A stretch of 64,000 nt of DNA from positions 54,595,526 through 54,659,525 of the forward strand of contig CM034541.1 in the NCBI GenBank assembly GCA_020002185.1, written 5' to 3'. The notes below the pieces were generated by a model, which saw nothing but the letters and a program-made list of their open reading frames with translations, was not told where the DNA came from and did no database searches. The DNA comes from Paraescarpia echinospica. Taxonomy: Eukaryota; Annelida; Polychaeta; Sabellida; Siboglinidae. Positions 867 to 63,010 of the stretch are shown here, one piece after another. The position numbers and the translations under genes are program-made. Every line of letters starts with the position of its first letter. The stretch's first letter is position 1.

Positions 867-978
867 AGAGATCCATGCCGCCGAATGTCCAGCTCATCAT
901 TGGCATCACCGTTGGTGTGTTCCTCTTCCTGGTCATCCTCATTGCAGTTATTGTCATCATCATCATCAAACAGAGCAG
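867..978 (+). CDS. INSR: Insulin-like receptor exon 1 in window: transmembrane segment
   Basis: The frame reads RSMPPN, then a run of about 25 hydrophobic residues rich in Ile, Val, Leu and Phe, then KQSR as the stop-transfer charge. This is the single membrane helix of the receptor. The donor is AGCAG|GTAGGT (phase 2). The acceptor is GAACAG|AGAG at 866/867; an alternative AG two bases later (exon start 869) cannot be excluded. The exon abuts a 32-bp minisatellite whose units all carry the same GAACAG, so many similar acceptors lie upstream. Confidence 0.85.
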
Positions 979-25920: not shown

Positions 25921-28900
25921 CTAGGATTGGCTCGTGCGGTCAGCATTCGAGTCGAGGGAGAGCATCGACATCTTTGAGCCGGCGCGGCTCTTGCTGCGCA
26001 TCGGCGTCGTGTCGTAGCGAGACATCGGCCGGATGTTGAGACTGCCGTCGCCCTCGCCGATCGACGTCATCGTCGAGTCGCGACTGAGGCGCCCCCAGTG
26101 GGCGACCTTCGGCTGCTCGGGAGGTCGTCGGTTGACGCGCGGGGTGCCGCTACCGGTGCCCGTGTGTCGAGTCGGCACGATCGGCGTCGACAGTCCCTTC
26201 TTCGCACCTCGACCGCCCGCCTGTTTCGGCTTCTTATTAATCTGTTCCGCGTTTTCGTCGAGTACGATGGTGCTAGTACGAGACACGGAGCCTTCAAGCA
26301 GCGCGCCAGTCGAAGATAGCGTCGCACCGCCGGTGATTGCCGGAGACACGGTCATCTGTCGCAGTTCGCTCATCGCCCGCTTCGCCGTCACAGGCCTGCG
26401 CACCGGCTCCTTAGCCCCCAGCGGTGTCGGCGCTGGCATGGGATCTTTTACGTCGACGCTGCGCACTGACGGCGTCCTCGCCGGCAGAGGCTGCTGGGGA
26501 ACGTCGGGCCAGTCGCTGGCGTCGTCATCGGTCGTGTCGAACTGCATCATGTCGGGCTGAGACGGCTCTCGCGTCACACGTGCTTCTGGTTGATTGTCAT
26601 CCATGAGGGGACCGACGCGGCTAGAACTCCTCGACGTTCGCAGGGTGCCCAACTCGATGCTGGCGATGCTGTGGGTGCGAGACGCCGACCGCCAGGTGTC
26701 ACCCTGTGATTCACGTCTTGTGGTCGTTGACGAGAACGAGTTCGTGATTCGGTTCCACAGCGACGATATGCTACTGCGAGACCCGCTCTCTCGGATCTCA
26801 CGCTCCTGGAAACTTTGCTCGGTCGATGTCCTAGAGTCCCGCCTGCCATCCGGTGACGTCACCACGCTCGTCTGCCAGGTGCTGCTCGTCGTCTCTACGG
26901 GCTGTGTCGAGAATCGACTCTTCATTCGGTCCCACACCGAACTGACGCGTCCACGTAGTCCTTCTCCGTCGGTCCTGCCGCTGTCCTGGCCGGGGAACGT
27001 GTCGACAGACGACGACCTCGAGCCCCGCCGACCGTCCGGTGATGTAGTTACTTCTGCATGCAGGGTGTTGCCGTCCGAGTTCTGTGGCGTCGTTGTCTTC
27101 GTGAACGGCCGCTTCACCTGACTCCACAGGGAGGCAACGCGCGTCCGCAGAGCTCCGTCGTACTCATACTCGTTGTCGGCGGATTCCATGTCGACGGACG
27201 ACGACGTTGTTGCCTCCGAATCGCGGCGGTCTTCCTTCGAATAAGGGTAGTGCCTTGCGTCGATGAGACACGTCTCCATCATCGCGTCCTCCTCCTTCTC
27301 CTTCCTCTTCTTCTTGCGCCCGGCCAACAGCCACAGCCTGCAGCAGCAGAGCAGGAGAGCGGCAAGAGCCGCGAGGACGAGCAGGACAATGAGCGAGATG
27401 GCCCAGCCGGGCATGCCGGCGCCCGTGCTGGCGCTGGCGCGGGCCACACACAGGTCGAGGTAGCCGGAGAAGACGCACTCGTCGACGTCGTGCACGGCGC
27501 GGCAGAAGAACACGAGGGCAGCCTGCGCCGTCTCGGCCGCAGCCTTGCCGCCCGCCGTCACGTCCCTCACGCACGCTTCAAAGTAGAACTGCTGCACGCT
27601 GCCCAGGTCACCGCAATGCTGCTTCAACAGGTCGCTGTCCGTGGCGTTCTTGCATATGTCATACACGTCAGGAGCGATGGTGAGCGGGAGAGCGTCCGGC
27701 GCGGCATCGTGGTCGACAGGCAGCGAGGACGGCCGCCACACTTGCTCGGGACGCAGTGTCGACGACGAGTAGGGGTACACGTGTCCATAGAAGCTGCGCG
27801 GTGTCGGTGCGTCTGTCACGTTCTGCGCGTCGTAGATGGTTGCGTTCGTCTGGTCGCTTTCGCCGTCGTCGAAGAGCGCGCACAGCAGCAGCTGTCGACT
27901 GTAGACGTCCGAGTAGACGCCCGTTTCCGTCTCGACCGCCGAGCGCGCTTTGCTGTAGCGCCACAGCTTAAGCAGGTCCAAGTCCATGGCGAACGGTGCC
28001 CGAGCACCCAGCGTCAATGACGTCATCTGCACGGAGACACCGGCGTGCACGTCCGCAGCGCCGCCGCTAACTGTTGAGTTATCCGCCGTTCCACTCGCGT
28101 ACAACGTCAGCTTACCCAAAGTGGCCGACCATGTGACTGTGACTCGCTGCCAGACGTCGTACGTTGCCCGGATGTCAATCGCCACCTCGTGTTCCCATGA
28201 CAATCGCCAGTACCCGTCAACTGTGTATACCTGTAGTTGCCCGCCATCACTAAATTCGACGGCCAAAATACGGTTGTCGCCGGCCATTGTCCCGACCGAC
28301 GTTTGTAGTTTCACCCAGAAGGAGAGCGTGAACTCTGCGATGTCATCGCTCATGCCGAGTGGATCGAAGGCGACGTAACTGTTGTCGAGATGCAGCATGT
28401 GGCCGGCTCCCGACATTTCGAGCAAGGCGCTGTCGTGTGACAGGTAGGATTTCTCGACTGCGAACTTGGCGGCCATGTTCGTTGCGACGTAGACGGTGGA
28501 GAGGACTTCGCCGATAAGCGTCGCGTCGCTCACCGCTCTTGTCTCGCCCGTCGTCGCGTTGACCTCGCCAAAGTTCACGTCGTCCGACCAGACACCATTC
28601 AAGTTACCCAGCATGCCCTGCGACGCGCTGGCTTTGTCGAGTGGCACTTCGATGCCGCAGACGAGTTCTCCAGCGGCATATCCTACGAGCATTTCGAGTC
28701 TGCCGTCGTCGAATAACAGTCGCACGTAGCTGTCTTTCCTCCACTCCACCACGGCTCCGGTGAGTTCGTACGTCGTTATCCCGTCGCCACCGCGCTTCAC
28801 TTGTTCCCACGCGCTCTTGACAAGCACTGATACCGCGAGTTGATCTTCTGACAGCTGAACCGCGACGGTGAAGTCGTTGGTTCGGAGCGACACCTCGACG

Positions 28901-31900
28901 AGACGACGACACTTGTACGAGTGCGGACACGGCAGGAACAGCATCTGAACCGACAGGTCGGCCAGCCGCAGCATCTCGTACGCTCCGGGCTGGATCATCT
29001 CGAAGGAGAGGCCATCGAATGTCGTCAGGTGAATGCCGGTGACGACTGCGGCGTAGCGAAGCATCGACACTCCGAGGACGGCCATGTTGCAATCGATGCC
29101 GTGCCAGCCGTCCGTGCAGCCGTCGCACGCATAATCGTATGGCACGAGTGACATGCGCGTGACGTACTCGTTCAGCGGCAGCGGCACGCTCATCCAGCGC
29201 GACTTGCACAGGCACGTGCCGTCCGCCGGCTGGCACTCGCCGTGCGTGTCGCACGCGCCGTGCGTGCTGAACATGCACACGTTGTCGCACGCCTGTCCCC
29301 AGTAGCCGGGCGGGCAGCTGCACGACTGCACAGCGGCATCATAGAAGCCGAACGTGCAGCAGATCGGGTCGCTGCAGTTGAGCGGCTGGCGCCAGTTGAG
29401 CAGCTTGTAGCACAGCGAGTCGAACTGGGCGATGGCCGTGTCGGCGGCCGCCGGATTGCCAGCGAGCACCACGTCGTCTATGCACTGCTGCAGATAGAGA
29501 CTGAAGGTGGCAACACCGAGGGCACCACATCCCTGAAGTCGCTCTTCCGTCTGCAGCAGCGCCTTGCACGTTTCGGCAGCATCCTCCCGCGTCGACACAG
29601 CGAACACCGACGTTGTAATGTCAGCCGACGGCGTCATCTCCAGGTCGGTCGCCACCCAGCTGGGCGGACGGGCGAGCGACGTCGCCTCCATATGTTCGTA
29701 CTGCATCAGCTCGGACGCGACGGTGCCCTTGCCATCGTTGAAGTCCCAGTAGAGGGCGAGGTTGGGCGTGCCGGTCGTCACGGCGATGCGGTAGTTCTGC
29801 GCGACTACCGTCGGATTGTGAGGTCGCGTCCACACACGCATCTCATCCAGGTAGCCGTTGAACGGGATCCCCGTAGACGTCAGACGCTTCGCCTGTGGCG
29901 CCATCTGGCCGAGAGTGAGAGTGCCCCCAGGAGTGAAGGCACCAGACGGCAGACGCACGACATGTACGAGTGTGTCGGTGTACGAGACGACAACGTACAC
30001 GTGCAGCACGGACATCTCTACGTCCCAGTGCAGGTTGAGCTGTGACCACGTGTTCAGGGCCAGCACCATGCCGGTGCTGTAGACGTTCGCTCCGTGGTGG
30101 ATCTCCAGTCCACTCTCTCGGTTCACTACCGACAGCGTGTCTGAGCTGTGGTACGACAGCACGACGCCGCCATATGATATCGGGTTCACGTGGATCTCGA
30201 GCGTGAAGCTGCCGGACGGTAGGGCCGATAGGCTGTTGATATTCATGCCGTTGTCGTTGAAGAGAAGACACACGCCGAGTTTATCGCTATCCGTCGCTCC
30301 GCCGGTGAACATATCGTACACTGCGTTCTCTTCCGCTGAGCGAGCCGCAAACACGGCGACTGTCGACTTCGATATCGGTTGCTTACAACCGGAAATGTCG
30401 ACAGTGGAGGAGCATATATCTACGTTGGCGCATGTGACCGCTTGCACAGCAAGTGGCATGTTGCACGAGCTCACCAGACCCGTCGACTGTCTCCACAGCA
30501 TCTTCGTGGTCGACACTGTCATGTCGACACCACTGTCTTTGATGCTGACGTCGACAGTCGCTTGCAGGTCGGAGGCGTATAGATGCAGCGACTGCGATGT
30601 CATGCGTGTCACCCTGATACCCGAGATGGCCACCGCCGACAGAACGTCGTGACTCTGCGTCAGCGTCCACACGACCATCCTGTCCGGCTGCGAACTGCTG
30701 CTGTTCACAAACACGTGTTCTCCGTTGTACGTGAGCATCATGGAGTCGAAGCACTTGGCCGGACCCGCCGACGTTTGACAGGGGACGAGACGGACCCACA
30801 CGACAAACTTCGCCTGGATGTCGAGGACTCGGTAAACAGAGTATTTGGTCAGTTCGAACGTGGACCCGTCCAGTGACGTCACCGTGGCTTGACCGCGCAA
30901 CTGGGCCGCCACTAGATCGTCGGAGCTGACACGCGACATGTCGGACGGCAAGACGGCGCAGTCGGCGCCGACCCAGCCGGCGTCGCATTTAGACAGTTCG
31001 CACGCGGTGCCGCTGAAGTGAGGCTCACATACGCACGCTCCGGTGGGCTGACACTCGCCGTGGCCGCTGCAGATGCTGTCGACTCCGCCCGGGCAGACAT
31101 TGTCGCACGACTCGCCCCAGAAGCCGACGAAACACTGACACGCGCTGCCGTTCGACGAGCCGTACATGCATCCGGTGCACTCCGGTGTCAACCATTCCGG
31201 ATATGCCGACCCAGATATGCCGCACATAAGAGACTTGTAGTCGACGACTCCGGAGCCGGCAATCTCACACAGATGCGTGAACGCCATCATCGCGTAGTAG
31301 CCGTGCTGCACGTTCCACGTCTGCACGCTGCTGCGGACGCACGTGCTGCGGTAGTGTGCGCTCACCTCGGTGGACAGGTCTCCGCACGCGGTGCGCACGG
31401 CGGTCGAGTGGAAGTACGAGTCGCACAGATCGATCGTCTTCAGTGCCACGTCTTCGTTGGGCGTGTAGATCTGAGCGAGGTTGTAGGTCGGTAGGTCGGT
31501 CACCTCGAGGTCGGACGCCTCCCAGGTCGGGTGCTGCCACGGCGAGTACGGCATACGCACATCCGAGTTGCGCATCAGCTCGTTCGCCGTGAAACCAACG
31601 CCCTCCGTGAACCGGTACAGGTATGATAGTTGTCGGCGGAAGGCAGTAGGCTTGATGTTGAGATGGTAGGCCTGGAAGATGACGGTGTGCGGCAGCTGTT
31701 CGTACCACACGGACAACTCGTCGATCTGGCCGTGGAACGGCGACAGTTCGAACGTGACGCCGTCCGGTGCTCCCTGCCACGTGCCGAGACTCAGACGGCC
31801 GCCGACGTCCATCAGGTCGGGACAGTCGACGTCGAACGTCTCGTACACGAGGCCGCTGCTCGGACCGAAGTGGTAGAAATGCAGTCGTCCCGCGTCGCGT

Positions 31901-34900
31901 TCGTACGCCAGCACAATCTGGTTCCACGCGTCTAGTGTGTTGGTCGTCGCCGTCGACACTGACGTCTGGCCGCAGTGGATCGTGATATTGTAGTCGTTGC
32001 TCAGCGCGAACGTCTTGTTGTTGGCGTACGAGAACAGTATGCCTCCATAGCTGGTGGGTCGCACGAGCAGACTTATCGTTATGTCGCGAGCTCTGTCCGT
32101 TCCGGCGCCGTTCAGTGTGTACGTGAGCGGGTCCGAGGTGCCGGCAGTGTTGTTGAACGACAGCGAGTACCCGGCCTTTGTTAACTGTGTCAAGTCGAAT
32201 TTGACAGAGCTGCTGCGGAACATACTCAGCTCGACTGGAAGAAGACTCGCGTTGCTCACTCGGTCGGCAATGTCCGCCACGTTCGCCGTCGTCTTGTTGA
32301 ACGGCACATCGTTGTCGGCGTCGCCATCACACGATCCCAGCATGCCGTGCGCTGTCTGGCAAGAAGAGTTGTCAGTCTCGATAATCAGCTGCAGGAACTG
32401 CCCCATGATGTAGATGTTGCACCGTACGAGGTGCGGTGACGACAACTCGAGCACGACCTCGTGTAGTGACCTCATCGTCAACCGGAAGTTGGCGCTCAAC
32501 TGCTCGGACATGTCGCTCATCTCCAGCTTCTGTCCGCCGGTGTAGACGAGTGGCCAGCCCAAGCCGTCCAGCTGCGCGAACACCGTTACGTTGGCCGAAT
32601 CCGTCGCCATGGCAACGGCATCGACGCAAGAGCCGAACTCGCAGATGACCTGGTGGACTTGGACGCGGACGTCACCGGAAGACGAGACAAAGGCGTCGAA
32701 CGAGCCAGCCCTATTGTCGACGGGGAACTGCAGGTTGTCGAACGTGTGATATGTGGCTGTCGGTGTGACGAACGCGAGTCTCGCCGTCGAGCTGACGATG
32801 GGCGCAAACAACACGCTGCAGTCGGCGCCGTGCCAGTCGTCGGCGCACCGGTCGCAGCTGTCTCCGCTCCAGTTATAGTCGCACTCGCATCCGGCGGACG
32901 CGTTGCATCGGCCGTGCAGCGAACACGGCCGGTCCGTGCCGCCTGGACACACCAGCGAGCACGTCTCGCCCGCGTAGCCGGTCGCACATACGCACGTGCC
33001 GTTGGCGGTCGACGCGCCAAAAGCGCAATGCTGCTGACAGTCGGTGCCGTGACGCAGGTCGGCGGCACCAGACGACTCGTTGCACATCGCCTTCATCGGC
33101 CACGTCGCCAAGTCCCCGCTAAGTTGACACAGATCTGCCAGATCAAACACAACTTTGTAGGACGTGTCCAGGTTGTCGGTCATGCACACCTCCTGCGTGC
33201 AGAACACGACGTACATCTCGATGGAGGCGTTGTTGAAGGAAGCACATGCAGACACCATGGCCGCAGAGTAGAAGACGGAGCGACACTTTGCTTCTACCTG
33301 CTCCAGGAACGTGGAGTCGGAGCAGTCAACAGCCAGTGGCGTGCTCATGCTGTCCTCTCGGTCGGGGATGAAGGAGGGAACCCAGTCAGGCGAGACCCAC
33401 GGCAGGCCGGGAAGCTCCAGTCGATGGCCCTGCTTCATATCCTTCGCTAGACCGTGCTTGCCTTCGTCAAACAGCCAGCCAGCGGTTAGTTTGACAGCTG
33501 CGTTGTCGAGTTTCATCTTCCACAGGTCTTTGATGACGGTCGCCTCGACCTTTATGTCCCACACGAGGAAGTTGTCGAGGTAACCAACAAAGTTGGGAAG
33601 TCTCTCGTGGCGCCGGCCGTTCCGTGGCGGCTGCCACTGACCCAAGGCCAGCAGTCCCTCGTCGGTGAACACGTCCGGGGGCAGGTGTAGGATGGAGCGC
33701 AACGGGATCCCACGTGACCCGAATACATATACGTCGAGGTCTCCAGTGGCGCCCTCGTAGGCGAGAACCACCTTGTTCCACGTGTTGTTCTCGAGGGTCA
33801 GGTTCGAGTGGTAGACCGTGTCATTGTAGTGGATCTGCAGTTCGTCAGACACCGCCAGCACGGCGAGCGTGTGTTCGTTCGCGAACGAGAAAAGGACACC
33901 CCCGGCAGAGCTGTTGGTGTTCACGAACACCTCGATGCTCACGTTGCCGCCGATTACAGCCTTCGACGAGAAGTTGCTGAAAGCCGCCGCGCCTGTGAAC
34001 CTGAGGGAGTAGCCGCCACTGCCTTGGAGCTCGTACTCCACCGACGGGTAGCTGATGATACGGTGGCATGAGTCGACCTTCCAGTTGTGTGCGTACTTCT
34101 CAATGGCCCCGACGTTGAGCGAGTCTCCGTTGGACACGGTGTCTCCGCTGGGTGCGACCGCGGTGTCGAGTGGGAGCGTCGAGTCGTTCAGGGGGACTGA
34201 CTGCGGCGCCTGCACTGATGGCGCTCCACAGACTCCGAGAGACACGCCGACGTATCCGGTTGAGTTGAGGACGTACACAATGGCGTCGTCCACGGTGCTG
34301 CTGCCGTTGCCACTGAGTAGACCAGTGGTGAGGGCGATCAGTCGTTTCGGCACCGTCACGCTCGTGTGAAGGTAGCGGTCTATGGCACGCACAACGACGC
34401 GCAGGTCGGGCGACACGTCAATGCCGACCTCCGTCTGCGATATGCGCTGCACGGAGAAGCCGTAGAAGTAGTCAGTATCATCCAGAACCCGAGTGACGCC
34501 GTTCAGCGCAAATTCTAGCCTCATTTCAGCCGTCACATACATGCTCAGTGTGGCGTAGCCGTGCGTGTCGTCGCCGAGTCGCAGCGCGATGAACGTGATG
34601 CAGGCGAAGCGTTCGTGGCAGCGGATCATCTTGGCGTTGACGCGCACGTACGGGTGGATTTCAAAGACGTGGTACTCGCCGATGGTCGTCAACCGGAAGT
34701 GAAGTCCATCGACGGTGTGCACCTGGCCCATGTCCGTCAACTTGGCCATGACGGTGAGCTGTGTGTCGGTCGGCGGCGTGTACGTTACGCTGCAGTCATC
34801 GCCGACCCAGCCGGGCGAGCACACGGAGCAGCTGTCGGAGCCACGTCGGTTGATGGGGCAGTTGCACACACCCGTCGCCTTGTCGCAAGGCCCGACGCCC

Positions 34901-52857: not shown

Positions 52858-52888
<31 letters not shown>

Positions 52889-55800
52889 GTGTGTGTATAG
52901 TATACATATAATATATATATATATACATTTACGCACGTTTAGACTGGATTGTGATTGTACTTGAGCGGATGTGAATATCTACCGGACATTTTTGGTAAAA
53001 TTTGATCCTGCATAAAGGCGTGGCGATATGCCAGGGGGTACTGTGACTATTGTAATCACCAGTGCCCCCTGGCGATATGTCAGGGGGTACTGTGACTATT
53101 GTAATCACCAGTGCCCCCTGGCGATATGTCAGGGGGTACTGTGACTATTGTAATCACCAGTGCCCTCTGGCGATATGTCAGGGGGTACTGTGACTATTGT
53201 AATCACCAGTGCCCCCTGGCGATATGTCAGGGGGTACTGTGACTATTGTAATCACCAGTGCCCCCTGGCAATATGTCAGGGGGTACTGTGACTATTGTAA
53301 TCACCAGTGCTCCCTTGTTCACAAGGATGGCAGACAAGAGTAATGAAGCATTCATCCTACCTGGACAGTCAAGCTGTTCACAGAGGTCTCCCTTGTAGCC
53401 CAACTCACACTCGCAGGTTCTGTTTGAACAACTGCCAAGGTTCGAGCACTGGACGTCACAGGCAGCGCCACCGTAGCAAGGGTCACACACACAGATCTGG
53501 GAGAATGGCGGATCCTCATGGCCATGGATACATGGAAGTTCACAGGCGGGGCCCATTGACTGGTAGCAATTGATGCACGTTGGTTTGTCGTACAGGTCCT
53601 TGTTGCATTCACCTGGAGTCAGGGCAAATCATTGCATGGTCACAAACACAGTTCTTTTGAAATGACCCCCAATCAATTTGCATTCTTTTTAAACTTACTA
53701 TTAAAAATATATTGAAGGAATTTGCAAAAAAATCAAAATGTTTTAGTTAATAATTGACTCCCAAAATACGTTATGCGTTATGTCATGACCACGTGCTATG
53801 GAGAAAATAAACTGCTATTGTGGCATCACCCAACAAGTGAAAGATGTCAGTGCAAACTGAGGCTGACAGTCAATTTGAATCGTTAAGATCGCAAGTCACA
53901 CATGCACTGGTATCTTGAACCAATTCTAAATGTATAACGTGTTTATACTTTGTGAACATATGAGACGATCCCTTACCTGTGCCATTGCAGTCAGGCGTGC
54001 CGGGGCAGTCAGGAATCTCACACCCTGTACCCTTCCACATGTCGTCACATGTACACTCCTGTTCAGCTATGTCACAGAACCCTCGTCCTGAGCAGCTCTC
54101 ACCCTCCCCTGGGCAGCCCCGGATGGTGCAGAGATCACCTGGGCAAACAGTCACATGACCATTTATGACCACATTTGGAATTGCAGAACATCGTTTTTAT
54201 GACTATATTTAGATTGCAAGTAGGAACTATGTTTATCTGTGTCCATGTTTTCAGCTGAAGCATTATTTAGTTTTCCAATTTATAACCATATTTAGACTTG
54301 CTGCCATATATTCATGCTTTCCCCTTCTACACAGGGTTTTAGTTTGGCAATTTATGGGCGGGTTCCACCACCTGTGTGTGGTTGGTTCCCCTCACCTTTG
54401 CTGTAAATTATTTATTAGAATTATATAGGCTAAAGCACTTCATGTACATATTGTATTGTATGGTTTAATGTTTGGCTTAATACAAAGCTCTGGTACAAAC
54501 TTACATCTGCCTTGTTATTTACAGCAAACTAGTTACGATTCTGAGTCAGTAACACCACTACACTAACAGGGAACACTGTCCCACATTCTGAGTCAGTAAC
54601 ACCACTACATTAACAGGGAACACTGTTCCACATTCTGAGTCAGTAACACCACTACATTACAGGGAACACTGTCCCACATTCTGAGTCAGTAACACCACTA
54701 CATTAACAGGGAACACTGTCCCACATTCTGAGTCAGTAACACCACTACATTACAGGGAACACTGTCCCACATTCTGAGTCAGTAACACCACTACATAACA
54801 GGGAACACTGTCCCACATTCCGAGTCAGTAACACCACTACATTAACAGGGAACACTGTCCCACATTCTGAGTCGGTAACACCACTACATTAACAGGGAAC
54901 ACTGTCCCACATTCTGAGTCAGTAACACCACTACATTAACAGGGAACACTGTCCCACATTCTGAGTCAGTAACACCACTACATTAACAGGGAACACTGTC
55001 CCACATTCTGAGTCAGTAACACCACTACATTAACAGGGAACACTGTCCCACATTCTGAGTCAGTAACACCACTACATTAACAGGGAACACTGTCCCACAT
55101 TCTGAGTCAGTAACACCACTACATTAACAGGGAACACTGTCCCACATTCTGAGTCAGTAACACCACTACATTAACAGGGAACACTGTCCCACATTCTGAG
55201 TCAGTAACACCACTACCAGGGAACACTGTCCCATTCTGAGTCAGTAACACCACTACATTAACAGGGAACACTGTCCCACATTCTGAGTCAGTAACACCAC
55301 TACATTACAGGGAACACTGTCCCACATTCTGAGTCAGTAACACCACTACATTAACAGGGAACACTGTCCCACATTCTGAGTCAGTAACACCACTACATTA
55401 CAGGGAACACTGTCCCACATTCTGAGTCAGTAACACCACTACATAACAGGGAACACTGTCCCACATTCTGAGTCAGTAACACCACTACATTAACAGGGAA
55501 CACTGTCCCACATTCTGAGTCAGTAACACCACTACATTACAGGGAACACTGTCCCACATTCTGAGTCAGTAACACCACTACATAACAGGGAACACTGTCC
55601 CACATTCTGAGTCAGTAACACCACTACATTACAGGGAACACTGTCCCACATTCTGAGTCAGTAACACCACTACATTAACAGGGAACACTGTCCCACATTC
55701 TGAGTCAGTAACACCACTACATTACAGGGAACACTGTCCCACATTCTGAGTCAGTAACACCACTACATTACAGGGAACACTGTCCCACATTCTGAGTCAG

Positions 55801-58800
55801 TAACACCACTACATTACAGGGAACACTGTCCCACATAAATTCATTTATGATCATATCTGGAGTTTCAGCAAGTTCATATTTTCCAGTTTATGGCCCCACT
55901 AAAACTTGCAGCCATGTGTTCTTTTATGACTATGTCTAGAGTTGCAGTGTAATCCCATTTTCAATTTTCATGACATTTCAATTTGCAGCAATATGTTCAT
56001 CTGTGACCAAATTTGGGAGTTCATTTGGCATGGTAAATAAAAAAAAATTATATGTGATTATCATGAATTTTCAACAAAGATTATGTGTCTTTTGCACGTA
56101 CCTCTCCAGCCTGGCTCGCAGGTACACGTGTCATTGTCACATGTGCCGTAGTTGTTACAAGTGTCATTGCAGCCACGTCCTGTCATACACGCATGACATA
56201 AACATGTGAGGTCTGGCTGCTTGTCGCCATGGACGCAAGGCAGGTCACATGACAGACCCATCCATTCAGAAGTGCAGTTACATAGTGGGCCGTCTGGACC
56301 AGCTCCACACGAACCTATAAGAATGCATGTCAGATATAAGATACCTTGCTCATGAGTTTTTGTGGGAAATGATGTTGTGGGCAGAAAGGAAAATGTATTT
56401 AAGAAATAAAAACAATTAATAATTCTCCAAGAAACATAGTGGAAAAATGTGCCGAGTCTGATGTTACAAATCTAATAAGATCTAAATGGGAACTCTCAAC
56501 AGATGGAGCCATTCACGTGATTCATGACCAAACAAGATGGAAAAGGGTGTTGCGAATTGCTGTGGATGTTTGGCCAAAATTAACAAGACGTATAATTATA
56601 AAAGATGATAAAAAATTAGAGAACATGACCTTTTACTGGCTACCTATTACTCCAGTGGGAGCAAACATGATTAAATCAGCGACAGTTTTGTGGGTCATAT
56701 TGTAGTAAACGTTTGAGTATAATGAACGTTTGGAGAGGAAAGTGATGTGTTGAATTTTAAATAAATACAGGCGCTGGTTTCATGAAGTGTACTTAAAGTT
56801 GCAGAATTACTTAGCGTCATGTATTTGTGTAAATTCCTGTTTGCTTATATTAAAAAATTGCATCGTTTATTAAGACAAACTTCTTAGCATTAAGAAAGTT
56901 CTTAGCCGCTTCATGAAACTAGCCCCTGGTTAATACGAACACAAATACATTTATTACAGGCAAATAAAAGTATATACCCATATATAATTGGTACATATAA
57001 TTACATTTATTTCAGGCAAATAAATGTATATACCCACGTATAATTGGTACATATAAATACATTTATTTCAGGCAAATAAATGTATATACCCATATATAAT
57101 TGGTACATATAAATAGGCAAAAAAATATAGCTTTTAAAAGTTAGAAATATAAATAGATAAATTAGAATAAAATAAGGTATAAAAGGTTATAAATAATTAA
57201 ATAAATATAAATAAATTTGATATGAAAGCACAAGACACATACCATGATTGTTGCAGTCTGGCTCCCCAGGACAGTCTGGCAGTTCGCAGGCCTCTCCGTA
57301 CCATCCTTCATTGCACACGCACACCTTCGTGTTCTTGTTACACGTGCCCTGCCCATTGCATGCCAGACTGCCGATACCTGGACAGCCGTCACGCTCACAG
57401 AAGTCTCCATAGTAACCCGGGTTGAGTCCCGTTGTCACGTTGGTGCAGTCACAAGTGTCGTCCACACACAGTCCCCGTTCGCTGCACATGTACTCGCAGT
57501 GTACACCGTGTGTACAGTTGTTGTCACACATACACATGTACCCGGTGTCAGTCTTCATGGCTGTTCCATTACACGGGATCTCGCAGGCCCCGCCCATCCA
57601 GCCGCGCTCACAGTTGGTGCATTGTGGGATGTCGTAGGAGGCGTCGCAGTCGCCGCGGTTGTTGCAGTCTTCGGGGCAGTGGGGTATCTCGCACCCGTCA
57701 CCAACCCACCCTTCGCGGCAGATACACAGCCCCATGATAGCAGTGGTCGAGATGAGGCAGTTGCCATGGTTACTGCAGTCGATGCCCTCCAGTCCGGGGC
57801 AGCCGGCTTCATCACAGAAGTCACCCCGGCCCCCGTCGAAGCCGCATGCGCAGGTGCCGTTGACCGTGCAGTTACCGACACTGTTACACAGCTCCTCGCA
57901 GTAGAAGCCGTGGTAGCAGGGCTCACACACGCACATGTTGTCTACCACGTTGCCATGCAGACACGAGTACTGGCATGCATCACCGAAGTACCCGTGGCCA
58001 CACTCACACTGGGGAGGGGTCGTAGGGTTGCAGTGACCTCGGCTGATGGGTAAATAACATGTTGCAATCACACAAACGGTAGAGTAATAATGTACCATAT
58101 ATACCTTACCCACGTTTTCTCCCAAAGTTTATATATATATATATATATTATAAGCTGTTAGTATTTTAACATTATTAGTAAAATAAGATCGATAACAAGT
58201 GACGATATTTAATAATTATATGTGATTAGTATTTATAAAAAAGGTCTGATTTCTAGTCTGAGTTTTGCTAACCCTGTTTGCTCCCACGTCAACAATGTCT
58301 AATGGCTTGATGAAACTTGTGTATGTTTTTATAATACTTTTTATGTATACAATTATTATCTTATAGAATGGCAGATGACAAGAGCAGTCACCAAAACCTT
58401 GAGCAGGATTTGGCTCAAGTTAATGGATATTTCAACACTTCTAAACCTTGTTAACAATCATGACAATATAATGGTGATACCACATATATCAAAGTGAAGT
58501 ATGTCTTACTTGTTGCAGTTGTCCTTACAGAGGGCGCTAGCGCAGTCCTTGCCGCCCCAGCCGGTGTTACAGAAGCATCGACCGCCTGTGCCGCACTCTC
58601 CGTGTCCGGAGCACCCCACGGGGTAGCCGGGACACCCTTGTAGCTGGCAGTAGGTGCCAGTCCACCCTTCATAGCCACAGTCACACACACCCTCCACACA
58701 GCGAGAGCCAATCTCAGAGCAGAAGACGTCACACGTGGTGCCATGATAACACGGCTCGCACACACACTCCCAGTTGCCGTCGTCATGACGAAGTGGGGTG

Positions 58801-61800
58801 CCGTGGTAACAACTGAAGTGAGGAGAATTTGTATGAGTTGCAGATAAATTATGAGCTTTTAAAAATATGTCCACACAAAACATAGTATTTAATAAACATC
58901 AAAACTGACTGACCTGACATATTTGTCATTTACTGATTATTGCTGTTAACGTTACAAATAACCAGATTATGATGTCAGCATTAAACTTAAATGAACAGTA
59001 CTAATGAAACAAAAAAGTAGAAATAATAAATTAAACAATAGAAAATGTTGTAGACATTTGCATTAAGCATTCTGAAGCTATAACAGAAATTACTTAATAA
59101 TTATGTTCTATCTTTCAGAAAATTGTCTGATAACTGCAGACACCACTCACAGTGATTCGCAGGCGTCTCCCATGTAGGGGGAGCTGCAGTTGACACAACG
59201 AGGACCGAGTTCCTCGCCCACCACCACGCAGACAGCGTCAACGCCATTACAGTCGGGGTTGCCTGGACAATCGAGTACCTCACATGCCTTGCCATGGTAA
59301 CCAGGGTTACACAGACACTGACCCGTTGCCAGGCAGTCACCGTGTCCGTCGCACGCCTTCGGCCACCCAGGACATGATGGGATATCGCAGTGTTCACCCG
59401 TGTATCCATCATAGAAGTTGCATTCGCATGCACCAGAGGCACCACAGTGGCCGTGTCCTGCGCATTCAAGTTGGCAGCCGACGCCATGGTAACACTGAGC
59501 CTCGCACGCACAAAAGCCTTTGACGTTCTCGCCATGGACACATGGGATGTGACAGCGGTCACCCACGTAGTGCGTGCCACAGGTGCACTGGCCCGCAAAC
59601 GTACAGTTGCCATACTCCGGACCTGCCGTGATATTGTCACATTAAAACACCAGGTAGGAACTAATATGTCATGAAAGCACACTAAAGTAAGAAAAATCAA
59701 AAAGTAAGAATTCAAGTTGGGGTTGGAATCAACAGGGCTAGTTTTTATTTATTTGCATTAACTAATAAGCAACATTATTTATAATGTAACAAAATGTGTA
59801 GTTAACAAGTATAATGTTCATGACACAATAATATCAATAATATAATCTATGAATTCGCACATCTTTTATCAAAACAAATTAAAGATATCTTTGCGACTGA
59901 GCTCACAAGATAAGTATCTGTGCGACTGAGCTCACAAGACAAGTATCTGTGCGACTGAGCTCATAAGATAAGTATCTGTGCGACTGAGCTCACAAGATAA
60001 GTATCTGTGCGACTGAGCTCACAAGACAAGTATCTTTGTGACTGAGCTCACAACATAAATATCTGTGCTCACCTCCACACATTGGGTCTCCGGGACAGAC
60101 TGGGTCCTCACAGGCGGGTCCCTCGTAGCCAACGTCACACGCACACTCCTGGGTCTGCGAGTTGCAGGTGCCCTTCAGGTTACACGTGCCATAAAAGCCG
60201 TGAGGACAGGACGTGTCCTCACACACCTCACCTGCATACGAGTTGCCTGGAACACAATGCAGTCATCACAGCAATTTGTTGAAACATAGCCAAGTCTAAT
60301 TATTCTCACAAACTTCTATCTATTAGTTGCCTGCCAACACAATGCAGTCATCTCACAGCAATGAGTTAAACGACAGCCAAGTCTGACTATTCTCACAAAC
60401 TTTTCCCATGTAAGAGTTGCCTGCACACACAATGCAATTGTCCCTGCAAAATATGTATATTTATTTATTCGCACACAGCTCTCCCATCTGGTAGTTACTG
60501 CCAGCACAATGAAACTTGTCAAAACAGGAATGTCCATTATTCTCATAAACTTCTGTGTATGAGTTGCCTGTGAACACAATGGATCTATCACATAATAATT
60601 CACCTAAATATATAACTAAACCTAATATGGAAATCTACACTCCCACGCAAAATCAAGCAGCGACTGTTTATTGCAACAGTAGAGTCTGTGCTACTCTACG
60701 GATGCGAAACATGAAAAATGACGAAAAACTTGACAAACAACTAGAAGGATGTTATACACGAATGCTTCAAGCCGCATTTAACATTTACTGGTAACAGCAT
60801 TTGACAAACATAGAACTATACAGTGGAATGTGTAAAGTCACCAGACACTGCAACAGACATAAGGATGAAATGGCATCTAAGGCCATCTTGTGGCAACCGA
60901 CACATGGAAGAACCAAGGCAGGAAGACCAGCAGCAACTTACATTGACTGCTTAAAGGAAGATGTGGGTCTAGAGATGGAGGAGCTGAAGACGGCAATGGC
61001 GGATGATTGAAGCCACTAATGTTCGACCCCAGTGGCCGACATGAGTGAGTGAGTGAGTGAAATATATTTATTGGGTATGTTTAATGTAGGAAAGGTTAAA
61101 AACACACAAGTTGTTGGCTTAAAGATGTAAATAAAATTACTATAAAATCTGATATATTTGACACAAAACAGATAAAAGAACACATAGCATATCATCATAA
61201 TTTAGTAGTAACATGACAACTTTTGTGTGTAATAGTTACACAAAAGTGATATAACATTATGAAGAAACTAGTGAAGAACACTTATTAATTGTAAACGCTG
61301 AACAATATCAATCACACGTCACAAGTGTATAAGTGAAGTCATCCAGTGATGGCTAGTGTTATTTATGTGGACGTTGTCAACCTACCTGTCTCCTCGTCGT
61401 CACACACACACTTGTCATTCTCACAGGTGCCGTGACCAGAACACTCAATGTTACAGTAGGCGCTGGAGTAGCAGGGGTCACAGATACACTCGTTGTTGAT
61501 CACCGTGCCATGCTCACACGGCTTGCTGCAGTCACGACCATACCAACCCTGCGACCATATAAGGCAACGTTACCCTGCACTGCCACCAACAGGCAAACTA
61601 CACATATGAAGTAATCACCTAATTTTGACATTGAAGCTCAGTGTGCTTGTCCACTTTTTTCTCAAACTGATAGAAATTAAGAAATTAAGTGTTGCTCACC
61701 ATGCCACAATCACAATCTCATCCATAGGTGGAAGGGAATATGAACGTATAGTTTGGGAACATGTCTATTTCTACCGCAAACTGATTTTGTAGTGTAATTC

Positions 61801-63010
61801 ACAAGAAACCTCCATGTCTCCACAGGTATTAGGAAAATGTAGGAATCTGCAATAATACACTGCATAATGTTCTGAGTGGTGGCAATTTAGATATTACTTT
61901 TAATAAACTCTATAATTATTTTGGAGTCCTTGTCTCGGCATCTTTGAATGAAAACCAGTAAGCACATTACACAAAGCTGGCAACCATGCAGTCACACTCA
62001 CCGCATAGCAGTTGCATTCTGGGATATCACGTCCAGTTGCATTACAGAAGCCGTGCCAGGAGCAGTCATTGTCACAGGTCGGAGTGTTGCAGTCCTCTCC
62101 TCCCCAGCCTGATGGTTAGGATAATAAAATAAGTCATCATAAACAGTGATGACGCAAGAAAACTATGGCTGCTAACACAGTACAGCATCACATCACTTCT
62201 ACTTACACCATTTCAATCACAAATACAACTGCAGGTAGGCTTAGTCCAATAGTTTAGAACTTGCTAATTATACTGCCGAATGTTGTATAAATTTACAATT
62301 GACAAAATGTGTCAGAGAGTGTCAACGATACATAGTTCACACAAAAATACTGTAATTAATTATAATTGATTAACAGTTGCAATTACATAAAGCAAGTCAA
62401 TTACAATTATGAGACTTTAAAAACCAGAATAAACTTCGTTTGCTGGCAATAAACTGTTACAGGAGTCTTGAGTTTGCTCCCTTTAGAGATGCTCAATACT
62501 GAGATGGTCTCTTAGTACGAACCTAATGAGTTTTGAGATGACGAGAACACTCACCGGGCATACACATGCACACGTGGTCAGCGCTGTTGCACGAACCGTG
62601 CAAGGAGCAGTCGTGTTTCTCTCCGGGACATCCTGGTATCTCGCAGAGACTCCCACGATGCACTGAATCACACTCGCAGCGTGTGCCGTCCGCGCTACAC
62701 TTCCCACTACCTGAACACTCGCTGTTACACCCCTTGCCCGCGTAGCAGGGGTGGCAGACACACATCCCGCTCTCTGGGGGTGATTGGGTTCCGTTCACAC
62801 ACGGCTCGTCACAGGCCTTGCCCATCCAGTCATCTTGGCAGTTGGTGCAGCGAGGGGGGTCAAGGGTCACGTTACACACACCCCTGTGGTTACAGTCAGG
62901 GCCAGGGCAGTCAGGGATGTCACACGCCTCGCCCGTCCAGCCAGGGTAACAACCACACACATGCAGGGCACTGTTACAGGTGCCATGGCCAGAGCAGTCA
63001 ATGTTGTCGC
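25921..63010 (-). CDS. Giant EGF / VWD / LamG-type transmembrane protein (gene model of 21 exons, 5' partial)
   Basis: Proposed join on the - strand, 5' to 3': 63010-62555, 62108-62002, 61548-61386, 60246-60073, 59622-59151, 58812-58510, 58042-57243, 56314-56102, 54138-53977, 53612-53361, 52508-52377, 51667-51476, 50725-50612, 50023-49729, 48890-48773, 48364-40789, 40228-40029, 39528-38483, 38071-37974, 37348-37105, 35236-25921. Every junction is GT-AG and all phases close, giving about 7,477 codons. Order: about 1,180 residues of EGF-like repeats; a beta-rich domain (exons 14-15); nine modules of EGF, VWD-like (HxxTFDGxxF ... CxNNPxDDF), LamG-like (ending VDEIRIWN) and a C8-like cysteine cluster; one membrane helix; a cytoplasmic tail. 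It should be a type I surface protein. The start codon and signal peptide lie beyond the window. The architecture matches no named family I know. The joining is well supported; one gene rather than two is inferred from unbroken phase. Confidence 0.85.
35430..36236. repeat. 40-bp minisatellite, 20 copies
   Basis: Perfectly spaced 40-bp units containing CTATATTGCCAATACTGCTG and CTGTACACAGTGTAAC, varying mainly at GTACAC/GTAGAC and GGC/GAC positions. It lies in intron 20 of the giant gene. Each unit carries CTTGTTACAG on the - strand, which resembles a 3' splice site, but it is not a copy of the exon 21 junction. Confidence 0.96.
36240..37104 (-). other. Giant gene intron 20, right part, no feature recognised
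   Basis: AT-rich intron between the 40-bp minisatellite and exon 20; nothing recognisable. Confidence 0.5.
37105..37348 (-). CDS. Giant gene exon 20: linker with polybasic RRRRRR site, start of C8-like cluster
   Basis: Acceptor TGCCGCAG|GTACAAC, donor GTACAA|GTACGT, phase 1 in and 2 out. After an acidic, Ser/Pro-rich linker it reads SSRRRRRREVDPTLTV, then DFCDTLFNTGAMY, the first cysteine of the C8-like cluster. Six consecutive arginines before Glu (37182-37199) fit a furin-type cleavage motif. No other module has such a site, so the protein may be processed here. Confidence 0.9.
37974..38071 (-). CDS. Giant gene exon 19: module 5 linker
   Basis: Acceptor CTTCCAG|GAGCTTT, donor CTTACTG|GTGAGT, phase 2 in and 1 out. 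It reads SFGPFEIRENWNSTLFGNEP, then DLAYLWKFDELT, equivalent to the LYWDFNDGKG-type linker after LamG in other modules. Confidence 0.85.
38483..39528 (-). CDS. Giant gene exon 18: module 5 VWD-like and LamG-like domains
   Basis: Acceptor GATTGCAG|ATGCAACAG, donor GTACAG|GTGAGA, phase 0 in and 2 out; 348 codons. The first half continues the divergent VWD-like domain with CCDLKLVGLCGGCGDC. The second half is LamG-like: VMTVEFLVRTCV, MMSYSGSNRTLAILHLD, SQISLIIDNVNQRGQIYIF, GNLGLGRWQPSADG and CLDQLRIWY. The ATG at the exon start is not a translation start, since it joins in frame to exon 17. Confidence 0.9.
40029..40228 (-). CDS. Giant gene exon 17: EGF end and start of module 5 VWD-like domain
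   Basis: Acceptor GCCTGCAG|GAGACG, donor TTCTGG|GTAAGC, phase 1 in and 0 out. It reads GDEVCSTCTEGHEGPDCSF, then ACSVSPGKTTNFLGYTFSV and YYMIKTQHLSFW. This VWD-like start lacks the TFDG motif of the other modules, so module 5 is divergent. Confidence 0.88.
40286..40387. repeat. 33-bp tandem repeat, 3 copies
   Basis: Three copies containing AACATGAGGTCTGCTACTGA and CACAGTGAGGTCT in the intron between exons 16 and 17 of the giant gene. Confidence 0.92.
40789..48364 (-). CDS. Giant gene exon 16: 7.6-kb intronless exon with four VWD-LamG-C8-EGF modules
   Basis: Acceptor CCTTGCAG|CCAGCTG at 48364, donor GGCAAG|GTACGC at 40789, phase 0 in and 1 out; about 2,525 codons. Counting from the acceptor, EGF-like at about 8-75, then four modules of about 630 residues. 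VWD-like starts near 85, 700, 1340 and 1985 (clearest: MISTFDGSEYRY ... LGTCNNDPSDDF; GACGSCDNNPDNDF). LamG-like follows in each (ending VVDEVRIWN, HVDEIRIWN, TIDEIRVWK, AVDRVTIWD), then a WxF.EG.G linker, a C8-like cysteine cluster, and a C..GYWG..C ... CPGGA.N.C..HG.C EGF pair. Proposed role: extracellular stalk or adhesive region, inferred from domains. The GC content is clearly higher than in the neighbouring introns. Confidence 0.93.
48773..48890 (-). CDS. Giant gene exon 15: end of the beta-rich domain
   Basis: Acceptor ACACCGCAG|ACCACT, donor CATCTG|GTAAGT, phase 2 in and 0 out. It reads GPLSGTDSVTWYVSYIKSNA, then ISSVTVAMGTAGVCAEEPHL. It continues the exon 14 frame through the split glycine codon and finishes the last strands of that domain. 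Confidence 0.85.
48891..49728 (-). other. Giant gene intron 14, no feature recognised
   Basis: AT-rich intron without repeat array or recognisable element. Confidence 0.5.
49729..50023 (-). CDS. Giant gene exon 14: beta-rich domain with FGY and RPTRFRPG motifs
   Basis: Acceptor TGCCGCAG|GTTTCG, donor GTTGG|GTGAGT, phase 1 in and 2 out. About 98 residues. After CTIPCVQDHG and an acidic linker comes HFHCVSQGSNSALYAWFGYE, then VYLTLPADNMITTTNDGA and RPTRFRPGMHDN. The FGY.N ... N.. ... RPT.F.PG pattern recalls, from memory, a beta-sandwich domain common in bacterial and microbial-eukaryote surface proteins; I cannot confirm it without a profile search. Exon 15 completes the domain. Confidence 0.88.
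50033..50182. repeat. Degenerate ~25-bp repeat beside the exon 14 acceptor
   Basis: Five or so imperfect copies of GTTCATGAACATGTTC(G/A)CATGA starting about 10 bp upstream of the exon 14 acceptor. They are intronic and do not contain the AG itself. Confidence 0.65.
50612..50725 (-). CDS. Giant gene exon 13: EGF-like
   Basis: Acceptor GGTTTCAG|GTGGCAA, donor GAATCTG|GTAAGA, phase 1-1. It reads GGKICRCYSDETNGYWTGGN, then CDECIPGFLKPTCTECES. Laminin-type EGF pattern; last EGF before the beta-rich domain. Confidence 0.87.
51112..51356. mobile_element. Candidate MITE with 18-bp terminal inverted repeats
   Basis: The left end CCGTATGTTTTGGGACAC (51112-51129) and the right end (51339-51356, reverse complement CCGTATGTATTGGGACAC) match at 17 of 18 positions, 245 bp apart. 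Two further direct copies of the same motif lie at about 51062 and 51299. There is no coding capacity. The size and inverted ends fit a non-autonomous DNA transposon. A target-site duplication is not clear. It lies in the intron between exons 12 and 13 of the giant gene. Confidence 0.55.
51476..51667 (-). CDS. Giant gene exon 12: EGF-like
   Basis: Acceptor CACCCCCAG|GTAACTG, donor GAACCAG|GTCAGT, phase 1-1. It reads CTLPVGAAAPICMCKHGVEG, then CGVCIEHFDPSQQCKACEPN and CNVLCIHGDATEP. Cysteine spacing closer to laminin-type EGF. Confidence 0.88.
51978..52189. repeat. 53-bp tandem repeat, 4 copies
   Basis: Four copies containing TACACATGGAATATGAACAC and CCACATTGAGAGCTTCAG, in the intron between exons 11 and 12 of the giant gene. 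Confidence 0.93.
52377..52508 (-). CDS. Giant gene exon 11: EGF-like
   Basis: Acceptor TCCACAG|GAGAGCC, donor GCAATG|GTACGT, phase 1-1. It reads GEPDCMDHGVCRRIGNQSLC, then TCRPGFTDEDCSGLVCPGPDC. One EGF-like repeat of the CPG type. Confidence 0.88.
52857..52925. repeat. GT microsatellite followed by TA run
   Basis: (TG)n with one C interruption from about 52857 to 52895, then a (TA)n run at about 52905-52925. Confidence 0.95.
53022..53315. repeat. 49-bp tandem repeat, 6 copies
   Basis: Six copies spaced exactly 49 bp (53022, 53071, 53120, 53169, 53218, 53267) containing GGCGATATGTCAGGGGGTAC and GTAATCACCAGTGCCCCCT. Only a few substitutions, so a young array. Intron 10 of the giant gene, near the exon 10 donor but not including it. 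Confidence 0.95.
53361..53612 (-). CDS. Giant gene exon 10: EGF-like
   Basis: Acceptor GACTCCAG|GTGAATG, donor TGTCCAG|GTAGGA, phase 1-1. It reads CNKDLYDKPTCINCYQSMGP, then CIHGHEDPPFSQICVC, CYGGAACDVQCSNLGSC and CECELGYKGDLC. The CIHG type followed by a CPG type start. Confidence 0.9.
53977..54138 (-). CDS. Giant gene exon 9: EGF-like
   Basis: Acceptor TTGCCCAG|GTGATC, donor GCACAG|GTAAGG, phase 1-1. It reads GDLCTIRGCPGEGESCSGRG, then FCDIAEQECTCDDMWKGTGC and CPGTPDCNGT. One and a half EGF-like repeats of the CPG type. Confidence 0.88.
54538..55836. repeat. 46-47 bp minisatellite, about 28 copies
   Basis: Head-to-tail units containing ACATTCTGAGTCAGTAACAC and CACTACATTAACAGGGAACA, with short indels (ACATTACAGG against ACATTAACAGG). 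It lies in the intron between exons 8 and 9 of the giant gene. There are no unique spacers, so it is not a CRISPR-like array. Copies are very similar, suggesting recent expansion. Confidence 0.96.
56102..56314 (-). CDS. Giant gene exon 8: EGF-like repeats
   Basis: Acceptor TCTTATAG|GTTCGT, donor GGAGAG|GTACGT, phase 1-1. It reads CGAGPDGPLCNCTSEWMGLS, then CVHGDKQPDLTCLC, CMTGRGCNDTCNNYGTC and CTCEPGWR. Two to three EGF-like sets. Confidence 0.9.
56315..56944 (-). other. Giant gene intron 7, no feature recognised
   Basis: A + strand open frame of 88 codons (56439-56705) has no recognised similarity and could be a relic of a mobile element. Otherwise AT-rich intron. Confidence 0.45.
56945..57115. 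repeat. ~56-bp tandem repeat, 3 copies
   Basis: Three near-identical copies containing ACATTTATTTCAGGCAAATA and ATATAATTGGTACATATA, in the intron between exons 7 and 8 of the giant gene. Confidence 0.88.
57243..58042 (-). CDS. Giant gene exon 7: EGF-like repeats
   Basis: Acceptor CCCATCAG|CCGAGG, donor ATCATG|GTATGT, phase 2 in and 1 out. About 267 residues holding eight or nine EGF-like sets, among them CECGHGYFGDAC, CVCEPCYHGFYC, CSNHGNC, CNNRGDC, CTNCERGWMGGACEIPC, CDCTNVTTG, CNGQGTC and CNEGWYGEACELPDC. Largest EGF exon of the N-terminal part. Confidence 0.92.
58510..58812 (-). CDS. Giant gene exon 6: EGF-like repeats
   Basis: Acceptor CACTTCAG|TTGTTAC, donor CAACAA|GTAAGA, phase 2-2. 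It reads CYHGTPLRHDDGNWECVCE, then CYHGTTCDVFC, CDCGYEGWTGTYC, CSGHGECGTGGRCFCNTGW and CKDNCN. About 101 residues, three EGF-like sets. Confidence 0.9.
59151..59622 (-). CDS. Giant gene exon 5: EGF-like repeats
   Basis: Acceptor CACGGCAG|GTCCGG, donor AATCACT|GTGAGT, phase 1 in and 2 out. About 157 residues with CTCGTHYVGDRC, CVHGENVKGFCAC, CYHGVGC, CAGHGHCGASGACEC, CDGHGDC, CNPGYHGKACE and CVNCSSPYMGDACE. It shows the alternation of CPG..DC repeats and CVHG repeats. Confidence 0.9.
59884..60072. repeat. 29-bp minisatellite starting at the donor of giant-gene exon 4
   Basis: Six copies of a 29-bp unit containing GACTGAGCTCACAAGATAAG and TATCTGTGC. On the - strand the units read TGTGAGCTCAGTCGCACAG; the true donor and the next bases are G|GTGAGCACAGATA, a shortened first copy. 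So each unit carries a GTGAGC donor-like site. Confidence 0.85.
60073..60246 (-). CDS. Giant gene exon 4: EGF-like, flanked by junction-derived repeats
   Basis: Acceptor TGTTCCAG|GCAACTC, donor TGTGGAG|GTGAGCAC, phase 1-1. It reads GNSYAGEVCEDTSCPHGFYG, then CNLKGTCNSQTQECACDVGY and CPGDPMCG. About 58 residues, roughly one and a half EGF-like repeats. Its acceptor junction recurs several times upstream (60250-60575), and the repeat on its 3' side starts exactly at the donor (59884-60072). Confidence 0.86.
60250..60575. repeat. Diverged tandem copies of the exon 4 acceptor junction
   Basis: The junction on the + strand is GAGTTGCCTGGAACACAATG (60240-60259). Similar strings recur at about 60325 (TAGTTGCCTGCCAACACAATG), 60413 (GAGTTGCCTGCACACACAATG), 60492 (TAGTTACTGCCAGCACAATG) and 60560 (GAGTTGCCTGTGAACACAATG), spaced 67-88 bp. 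Each copy carries the last intron bases, the AG and the first exon bases. They are old and diverged. Confidence 0.78.
60601..61014 (+). pseudogene. 3' fragment of a non-LTR retrotransposon in intron 3 of the giant gene
   Basis: The + strand reads, with one stop and small losses, LDKQLEGCYTRMLQAAFNI, then QHLTNIELYSGMCKVT, EMASKAILWQPTHGRTK, AGRPAATYIDCLKEDVGL and MADD. This is the C-terminal block of a LINE reverse transcriptase (GCYTRMLR...LW.P.HG....GRPA.TY.D). A (GAGT)n run follows at 61045-61060, a simple 3' tail typical of such elements. It is 5' truncated and opposite in orientation to the host gene. Confidence 0.82.
61386..61548 (-). CDS. Giant gene exon 3: EGF-like
   Basis: Acceptor GGTCGCAG|GGTTGG, donor GAGACAG|GTAGGT. 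It reads GWYGRDCSKPCEHGTVIN, then CICDPCYSSAYC and CSGHGTCENDKCVCDDEE. One EGF-like unit of the C.HG type plus the start of the next. Confidence 0.84.
62002..62108 (-). CDS. Giant gene exon 2: EGF-like
   Basis: Acceptor AACCATCAG|GCTGGGG, donor TATGCG|GTGAGT, phase 1 in and 0 out. It reads GWGGEDCNTPTCDNDCSW, then HGFCNATG and CNCYA. It completes the CMCMPGW repeat begun in exon 1. Too short for an ordinary open-frame search; supported by phase and cysteine spacing. Confidence 0.82.
62109..62554 (-). other. Giant gene intron 1, no feature recognised
   Basis: AT-rich intron with no repeat array or mobile element seen. The other unlisted introns of this gene (37349-37973, 38072-38482, 39529-40028, 48365-48772, 53613-53976, 58043-58509, 58813-59150, 61549-62001) are similar. 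A short (AT)n run lies at about 58127-58148. Confidence 0.5.
62555..63010 (-). CDS. Giant gene exon 1 in window: EGF-like repeats
   Basis: Acceptor TTGCGCAG|GCGACAAC, donor GCCCG|GTGAGT. About 152 residues with five EGF-like cysteine sets: CSGHGTC, CNHRGVC, CVCHPCYAGKGC, CSGSGKC and CSLHGSC. It alternates CPG..DC type repeats with CVNG type repeats, as in the later exons. It begins inside a codon, so at least one more coding exon lies upstream of the window. Confidence 0.88.

Follow-up and report, generated by a model that had tools for sequence, protein, structure and literature searches.

We describe a gene in a window of 64,000 nucleotides of the tubeworm Paraescarpia echinospica (positions 54595526-54659525 of chromosome C11; genome 1.08 Gb). 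The window very probably holds the 3' part of a single gene of 115 exons encoding a type I membrane protein some 21,600 residues long. On balance we favour the reading that it represents a family of giant membrane-anchored proteins not described before, found in annelids and molluscs at least, with a stalk of about 33 units, an F5/8 type C (F5/8C) domain near the tip, and nine D assemblies that have each gained a pentraxin-like lectin domain. In this joint reading the stalk is probably a beta-solenoid, perhaps distantly related to G8, that would project several tenths of a micrometre. Gene coordinates below are in window numbering and lie on the minus strand.

Two stop-to-stop frames, of 3,116 amino acids at 25921-35271 and 2,538 amino acids at 40772-48388, head the window's list of 41 open reading frames (ORFs); the third longest, of 791 amino acids, is a minisatellite frame. 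They correspond to exons of 9.3 and 7.6 kb within 25921-48364, the remaining exons of the gene being mostly small. The sequence-only reading had joined 21 exons in one frame into a protein of more than 7,400 residues. Our gene model recovers the same 21 exons at 25921-63010, in one frame and encoding 7,474 amino acids, but this is only the window portion of a gene about three times larger whose start lies far outside the window. The full model spans 148,917 bp and predicts 21,599 residues (2.28 MDa). Its introns fall in phase 1 (68), phase 0 (33) and phase 2 (13), and over the whole gene GC content is 0.564 in exons and 0.348 in introns. The start codon, at 174837, surfaced after 4 kb more upstream sequence was added, and the predicted N-terminus, MAATRLSLLLVLVLRTMPSAAEPACS, is signal-peptide-like by eye (no predictor was run) and splices in frame to the next strong exon. 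Exon 1 was set by hand: the donors at 174486, 174495 and 174504 and the in-frame ATGs at 174858 and 174837 all keep the frame open, so the protein may be longer or shorter by anything from a few residues to about 13. Seven of the model's exons score below 5, counting exon 1, which carries no score. A gene end inside the window was ruled out, as the chain stayed open upstream until an ATG with a hydrophobic start. Chains of 116 and 118 exons, and an earlier start reading MTATQRRN, were dropped when additional sequence showed their 5' exons to be spurious.

The gene finder, a dynamic programming method trained at this locus and run on the window together with upstream C11 sequence, scored 8,822 on the real strand (the 118-exon chain, 21,690 amino acids), compared with 1,354 for the best gene on the plus strand (5,204 amino acids), 825 on the reversed sequence (3,076 amino acids) and 774 on a block-shuffled sequence (4,467 amino acids). 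It chained exons on these nulls too, so the joins must rest on other evidence. The exon at 68977-70594 runs in a single frame from the final glycine-rich repeat into the first EGF domains. The Pecten maximus model LOC117331103 (P0008) is collinear over 4,178 columns at 46.3% identity (residues 11,460-15,503 in earlier-model numbering, to which 72 is added for the final numbering), covering stalk, EGF array, the exons at 49729-50023 and 48773-48890, and some 60 residues of module 1. Lamellibrachia satsuma LSAT2_008506 (P0005) is collinear between the end of module 2 and the module 8 LamG, aligning on both giant exons and between them at 40026-40229, 38482-39507 and 37960-38073. A paralog on chromosome C13 is collinear over residues 1,607-21,245, with 93 of the 98 exons from the start of the chain, and all 21 window exons, in one chain; same-strand C13 matches at E<=0.01 were found for 108 of the 115 exons, a count that may include other repeat units. 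Differences between C11 and C13 are concentrated at third codon positions (0.59-0.65; first positions 0.29-0.44, second positions 0.25-0.34), and the pattern is alike in stalk, array and modules.

Several observations weigh against a single gene. The exons chained on the nulls are spurious, and GT-AG borders at 114 of 114 introns and the open frame itself are imposed by the finder rather than observed. Seven of the 115 exons lack a same-strand C13 match at E<=0.01, and the first 17 precede the C13 chain, where the C13 sequence compared ends; the weakest joins are those within the first 1,600 residues. A permissive finder could have falsely joined two or more adjacent genes, and the anatomy is a prediction from sequence. 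The bridging exon, the Pecten and Lamellibrachia models that span the main joins, and the collinear paralog all argue against such an error, which we regard as very unlikely, and the anatomy as one gene appears highly probable.

The most distinctive part of the protein is its series of modules. Cut at EGF pairs, the assembled protein yields nine mutually alignable segments of about 560-660 residues, the number that the sequence-only reading had counted. The 7.6-kb exon (40789-48364; orthologous exon ORFs P0009 and P0010) encodes an EGF pair, module 1 (46238-48148), module 2 (44414-46237), module 3 (42587-44413) and most of module 4. An exon at 40029-40228, placed by the gene model and the P0005 alignment, links the EGF of module 4 with the start of the module 5 VWD. 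Three exons within 37105-39519 (38483-39519, 37974-38071 and 37105-37348) then encode the VWD, the LamG and the start of the C8-like domain of module 5; P0005 matches the first two, and the third is supported by the gene model and by the C13 chain. The 9.3-kb last exon (25921-35236) carries the rest of module 5 (C8-like and EGF), module 6 (32815-34788), module 7 (30955-32814; VWD, pentraxin/LamG, C8-like, two EGF), module 8 (29086-30954), module 9 (27406-29085; weak VWD, LamG, C8-like), the membrane helix, the tail and the stop. Its orthologs include P0003 (87%), P0004 (83%) and P0005 (44% over 70%).

Pfam identified VWD (PF00094; E 3.4e-27 on P0002 and 1.4e-12 on P0001), Laminin_G_3 and EGF models on both giant frames. 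A domain-by-domain profile search was one of the checks set beforehand, and was run at E<=10 on seven whole modules, on module 4 up to its intron, and on the main exon of module 5, a piece that begins after the module's first residues and excludes its C8 region and EGFs. Laminin_G_3 was reported in nine of nine modules (above cut-off in 3, 8 and 9, and at E 0.027 in module 5), and VWD in five (above cut-off in 1, 2 and 7, weak in 3 and 9). EGF-type models were found in modules 2, 3, 4, 6, 7 and 8 (E<=0.035) and in module 1 only at E 9.9, with none in module 9. A structure prediction of module 7, another planned check, matched the D assemblies of mucins and VWF. That predicted fold, together with six cysteines invariant in 11 segments, suggests that a C8-like domain is present after the VWD in the modules. 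Thus, of the proposal that all nine modules read VWD-LamG-C8-EGF, the LamG stands throughout by Pfam, while VWD is named by Pfam in five, C8 in none, and module 9 ends without an EGF. The proposed insertion itself was borne out to the extent that LamG follows VWD in all nine by Pfam and alignment together.

Points against the D-assembly reading are that VWD had no Pfam report in modules 4, 5, 6 and 8, where it is placed by alignment only; that C8 was absent from all nine Pfam reports, the module 5 piece excluding that region; that a sequence search with a C8 profile retrieved no C8 structure; and that CxxC-like pairs, which mucins and VWF use in multimerisation, were seen in the VWD part of just two modules, 2 and 5. 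The GDPH motif, which has a role in autocleavage, was found in none of the nine modules. A standard mucin or zonadhesin was ruled out by domain order: mucins, VWF, FCGBP and zonadhesin have D assemblies of VWD-C8-TIL-E, whereas here a pentraxin/LamG domain stands between VWD and C8, and an EGF pair takes the TIL/E position and ends eight of the nine modules. CxxC-like pairs in only two of nine modules, the membrane helix and the glycine-rich stalk also set the giant protein apart from mucins and VWF.

Module 9 runs into the predicted transmembrane helix, WAISLIVLLVLAALAALLLCCC (27340-27405), the one segment that exceeds 1.9 when hydropathy is scanned along the full protein 19 residues at a time; two others reach 1.66-1.67. 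Adjoining it is a putative cytoplasmic tail of 468 amino acids (25921-27339), in agreement with the single helix and large tail proposed earlier. The tail is rich in Ser, Thr and Arg, and is similar in the ortholog P0003, which shares its three tryptophan-containing repeats (RVxSLWxxxKxxF); these may be amphipathic or peptide-binding motifs. The C13 paralog also has a hydrophobic helix after module 9 (by eye). Weighing against the tail as described, its frame stops 56 residues later, and a search of the C13 stretch with the C11 tail gave nothing at E<=10, so a long tail may not be general. The C13 paralog may also have a further spliced tail exon.

Preceding the modules is a teneurin-type EGF array at residues 13,574-15,443, where the sequence-only reading had also seen a long EGF array; a regular expression counts 33 six-cysteine motifs in it. 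Pecten P0008 scored 373.8 bits against the Pfam teneurin EGF model, and matches to EGF_TEN and EGF_Teneurin were obtained. The later part of the array occupies 15 exons of the window (48773-63010; in order of transcription 62555-63010, 62002-62108, 61386-61548, 60073-60246, 59151-59622, 58510-58812, 57243-58042, 56102-56314, 53977-54138, 53361-53612, 52377-52508, 51476-51667, 50612-50725, 49729-50023 and 48773-48890), and is collinear in P0008 (46% identity) and in the C13 paralog. The last two of these exons encode a mostly non-EGF stretch that Pecten also has. The EGFs also resemble the stramenopile mastigoneme chains OCM6 and 'Tubular mastigoneme protein'; this similarity falls within the EGF region, and no kinship was concluded from it.

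Upstream of the array, outside the window and extending to about residue 13,573, is the stalk, in which glycine-rich units recur about every 400 residues. It may resemble plant glycine-rich proteins. A profile built from four Pecten units gave 34 matches, some of them split units, or roughly 33 units. Near the start of the stalk, an F5/8C domain is inserted at residues 247-395 (E 1.2e-8). The stalk exon P0007 had no Pfam match at E<=5 and no PDB sequence match, the stalk exon L010:3-3065 had no Pfam match at E<=10, and Pecten P0008 had no stalk family by Pfam at E<=1. One of three large stalk exons scanned (L022:2-2830, minus strand, outside the window) matched G8 at E 9.1e-4 (19.6 bits, cut-off 22.9), and Solemya P0034 matched G8 at E 0.092. 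G8 proteins carry beta-helix repeats, and the sub-cut-off match is therefore a lead toward a beta-solenoid, not proof; a link of the stalk to beta-helix proteins of the fibrocystin/TMEM2 type is possible. An AlphaFold2 model of one Pecten stalk unit was all-beta but poor (pLDDT, the predicted local confidence score, 51), and Foldseek on this model gave a best E of 0.1, which is not significant, with many beta-helix proteins among the matches. Both results weaken the solenoid reading, and we offer it as a guess.

Three protein searches returned 4, 9 and 182 matches; in the second and third, scoring was limited to the candidates with the most words in common, and the listing of the third showed 120 matches. 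This homolog search, also set beforehand, found relatives in the annelid Lamellibrachia satsuma and the bivalves Pecten maximus, Solemya velum and Mytilus galloprovincialis, at 44-48% identity over the matched part. Among the matches listed, all animal relatives with a named species are labelled 'hypothetical' or 'uncharacterized'. Pecten LOC117331103, Lamellibrachia LSAT2_008506, Solemya ScPMuIL_013264 and the Mytilus sequence are homologous pieces in partial models. Weaker matches, to short glycine-rich stretches, include named bacterial metagenome-assembled genomes. The titles and abstract openings searched in the literature gave no description of the family, consistent with the claim that no named family has this order. 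The suggestion of an undescribed adhesion or receptor family thus held for 'undescribed', as far as the searches reach, while 'adhesion or receptor' is read from the domains.

Other known systems share parts of the architecture. Dumpy is similar in size, with some isoforms of 23,000 amino acids, and is membrane-anchored, according to PMC8520396, which also describes altered wing tension in Dumpy mutants. The giant protein has module 9 before its helix, where Dumpy has a ZP domain, and no ZP was found in P0001 at E<=0.1. Dumpy is built of EGFs, ZP and DPY modules, and we know of no D-LamG-C8 modules or glycine-rich stalk in it. Teneurins have similar EGF repeats (the EGF_TEN and EGF_Teneurin matches), but the helix here is near the C-terminus, in place of a teneurin N-terminal cytoplasmic part and YD shell, and the last exon has no teneurin C-terminal domains. 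VWDE resembles the giant protein in having a VWD followed by EGFs; it has one VWD and no LamG, stalk or membrane helix, and the giant protein differs by a LamG in every module. P0003-P0005 carry the precomputed label PF26129, which is probably the Vwde helical domain. The tie to G8-domain proteins, such as fibrocystin/PKHD1L1, TMEM2 and CEMIP, is the stalk matches, which are too weak for membership; to our knowledge these proteins have no D-LamG-C8 modules or EGF array. The flatworm adhesives Mlig-ap1/ap2 and the sea star Sfp1 have vWD, C8, EGF and lectin-type domains in common with the giant protein, and differ, in the accessible text of PMC6410801, in being secreted, in having TIL (Mlig-ap) and other repeats, and in having no LamG between VWD and C8.

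We think it somewhat probable that this is a giant membrane-anchored protein of the anatomy described that works as a tether or adhesive; the tether or adhesion role taken by itself, which is drawn from the domains, we consider evenly balanced. From the N-terminus, a signal-peptide-like start, F5/8C, about 33 glycine-rich units and the EGF array would be followed by nine D-assembly-like modules with pentraxin/LamG between VWD and C8, one helix and an intracellular tail. Stalk and EGF array would keep the far tip some hundreds of nanometres away from the cell; the reach of several tenths of a micrometre is estimated from the rises typical of solenoids and EGF domains. The F5/8C and lectin-like LamG domains might bind glycan or matrix partners, the membrane-proximal D modules might stack like the beads of mucins and VWF, and the tail would attach to the cell. 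This reading uses all the parts: stalk, distal F5/8C, LamG, D assemblies and Ser/Thr-rich tail. According to PMC6410801 and PMC8621496, giant aquatic adhesives have vWD, C8, EGF and lectin domains in common; according to PMC8520396, Dumpy, which is anchored in the membrane and has about 23,000 residues, can work at an epithelial surface. A point against the tether reading comes from PMC8621496, which argues that flatworm glues hold to the outside surface by means other than their vWD-C8-TIL parts; on that view the D modules are less likely to be where the protein sticks.

The sequence does not distinguish whether the protein sticks to outside surfaces, fastens cells to a cuticle or shell matrix, or recognises gametes. 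The first alternative is a Dumpy-like load-bearing anchor of the apical matrix, tying the epithelium to cuticle, periostracum or shell matrix and transmitting tension instead of gluing cells to outside surfaces. Size, membrane anchor and EGF content are like those of Dumpy, and molluscs and annelids are animals with cuticles or shells, but no ZP domain was found in the parts of the protein scanned; we consider this possible though rather doubtful. Less probable still is a secreted or shed bioadhesive, its ectodomain cleaved near the membrane and released into glue or mucus as in Mlig-ap1/ap2 and Sfp1. The vWD-C8-EGF-lectin content and giant repeats (14,794 amino acids in Mlig-ap2) occur there, but both paralogs have a hydrophobic helix after their final module (C13 by eye), the modules have no GDPH motif, and the word transmembrane is absent from the text of PMC6410801. 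A zonadhesin-like surface protein for gamete or self-recognition is scarcely credible: zonadhesin does have D-assembly arrays, but 44-48% identity to bivalves and another annelid is unlike fast-evolving gamete proteins.

If a single transcript is confirmed, this tether candidate would be among the longest animal proteins, comparable to Dumpy. It has a D assembly split by pentraxin/LamG and a glycine-rich repeat, neither of them named above any Pfam cut-off in our scans. Identity of 44-48% to bivalves and Lamellibrachia suggests strong constraint on something basic to the surfaces of these animals, and the fact that the homologs found are gene fragments suggests that giant surface tethers may be overlooked in marine invertebrate annotation. 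The two diverged paralogs in one genome allow comparative tests.

The C13 paralog, at C13:42165001-42315000, is near full length and collinear across about 19,600 residues. Stalk matches in the genome (49 listed; 35 of 85 candidates scored) were mainly on C11 and C13, with minor matches to short pieces on C9 and elsewhere on C11 and to a fragment on C3 (C3:44995124-44996937). The C3 fragment, at 68% identity and with nine in-frame stops in its main match, resembles a pseudogene copy. Pairs of nearly equal stalk matches (42305870-42309226 with 42339485-42343003, and 42138456-42138860 with 42419101-42419505) lie close to the 5' part of the C13 paralog and flank it; they suggest local duplication or assembly duplication. 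In a quick tree of the P0007 exon (45 rows, midpoint root, some long branches), the neighbour of C11 was a clade of sequences resembling C13, and Mytilus and Solemya branched elsewhere. Also found were P0011 (4,680 amino acids) and P0012 (4,517 amino acids), with kelch and teneurin-type EGF labels, on short contigs, which matched at 28-29% over half of the EGF-array query.

Elsewhere in the window, a 30-bp minisatellite of 95.6 copies occupies 7484-10349, its unit length keeping several frames open as ORFs of up to 791 amino acids; ORFs at 7484-10526 with odd Pfam matches were ruled out as genes on this ground. Further minisatellites lie at 1-5452 (periods of 32-96 bp), 35431-36236 (40 bp) and 53021-55836 (47-139 bp), the latter two within introns of the giant gene.
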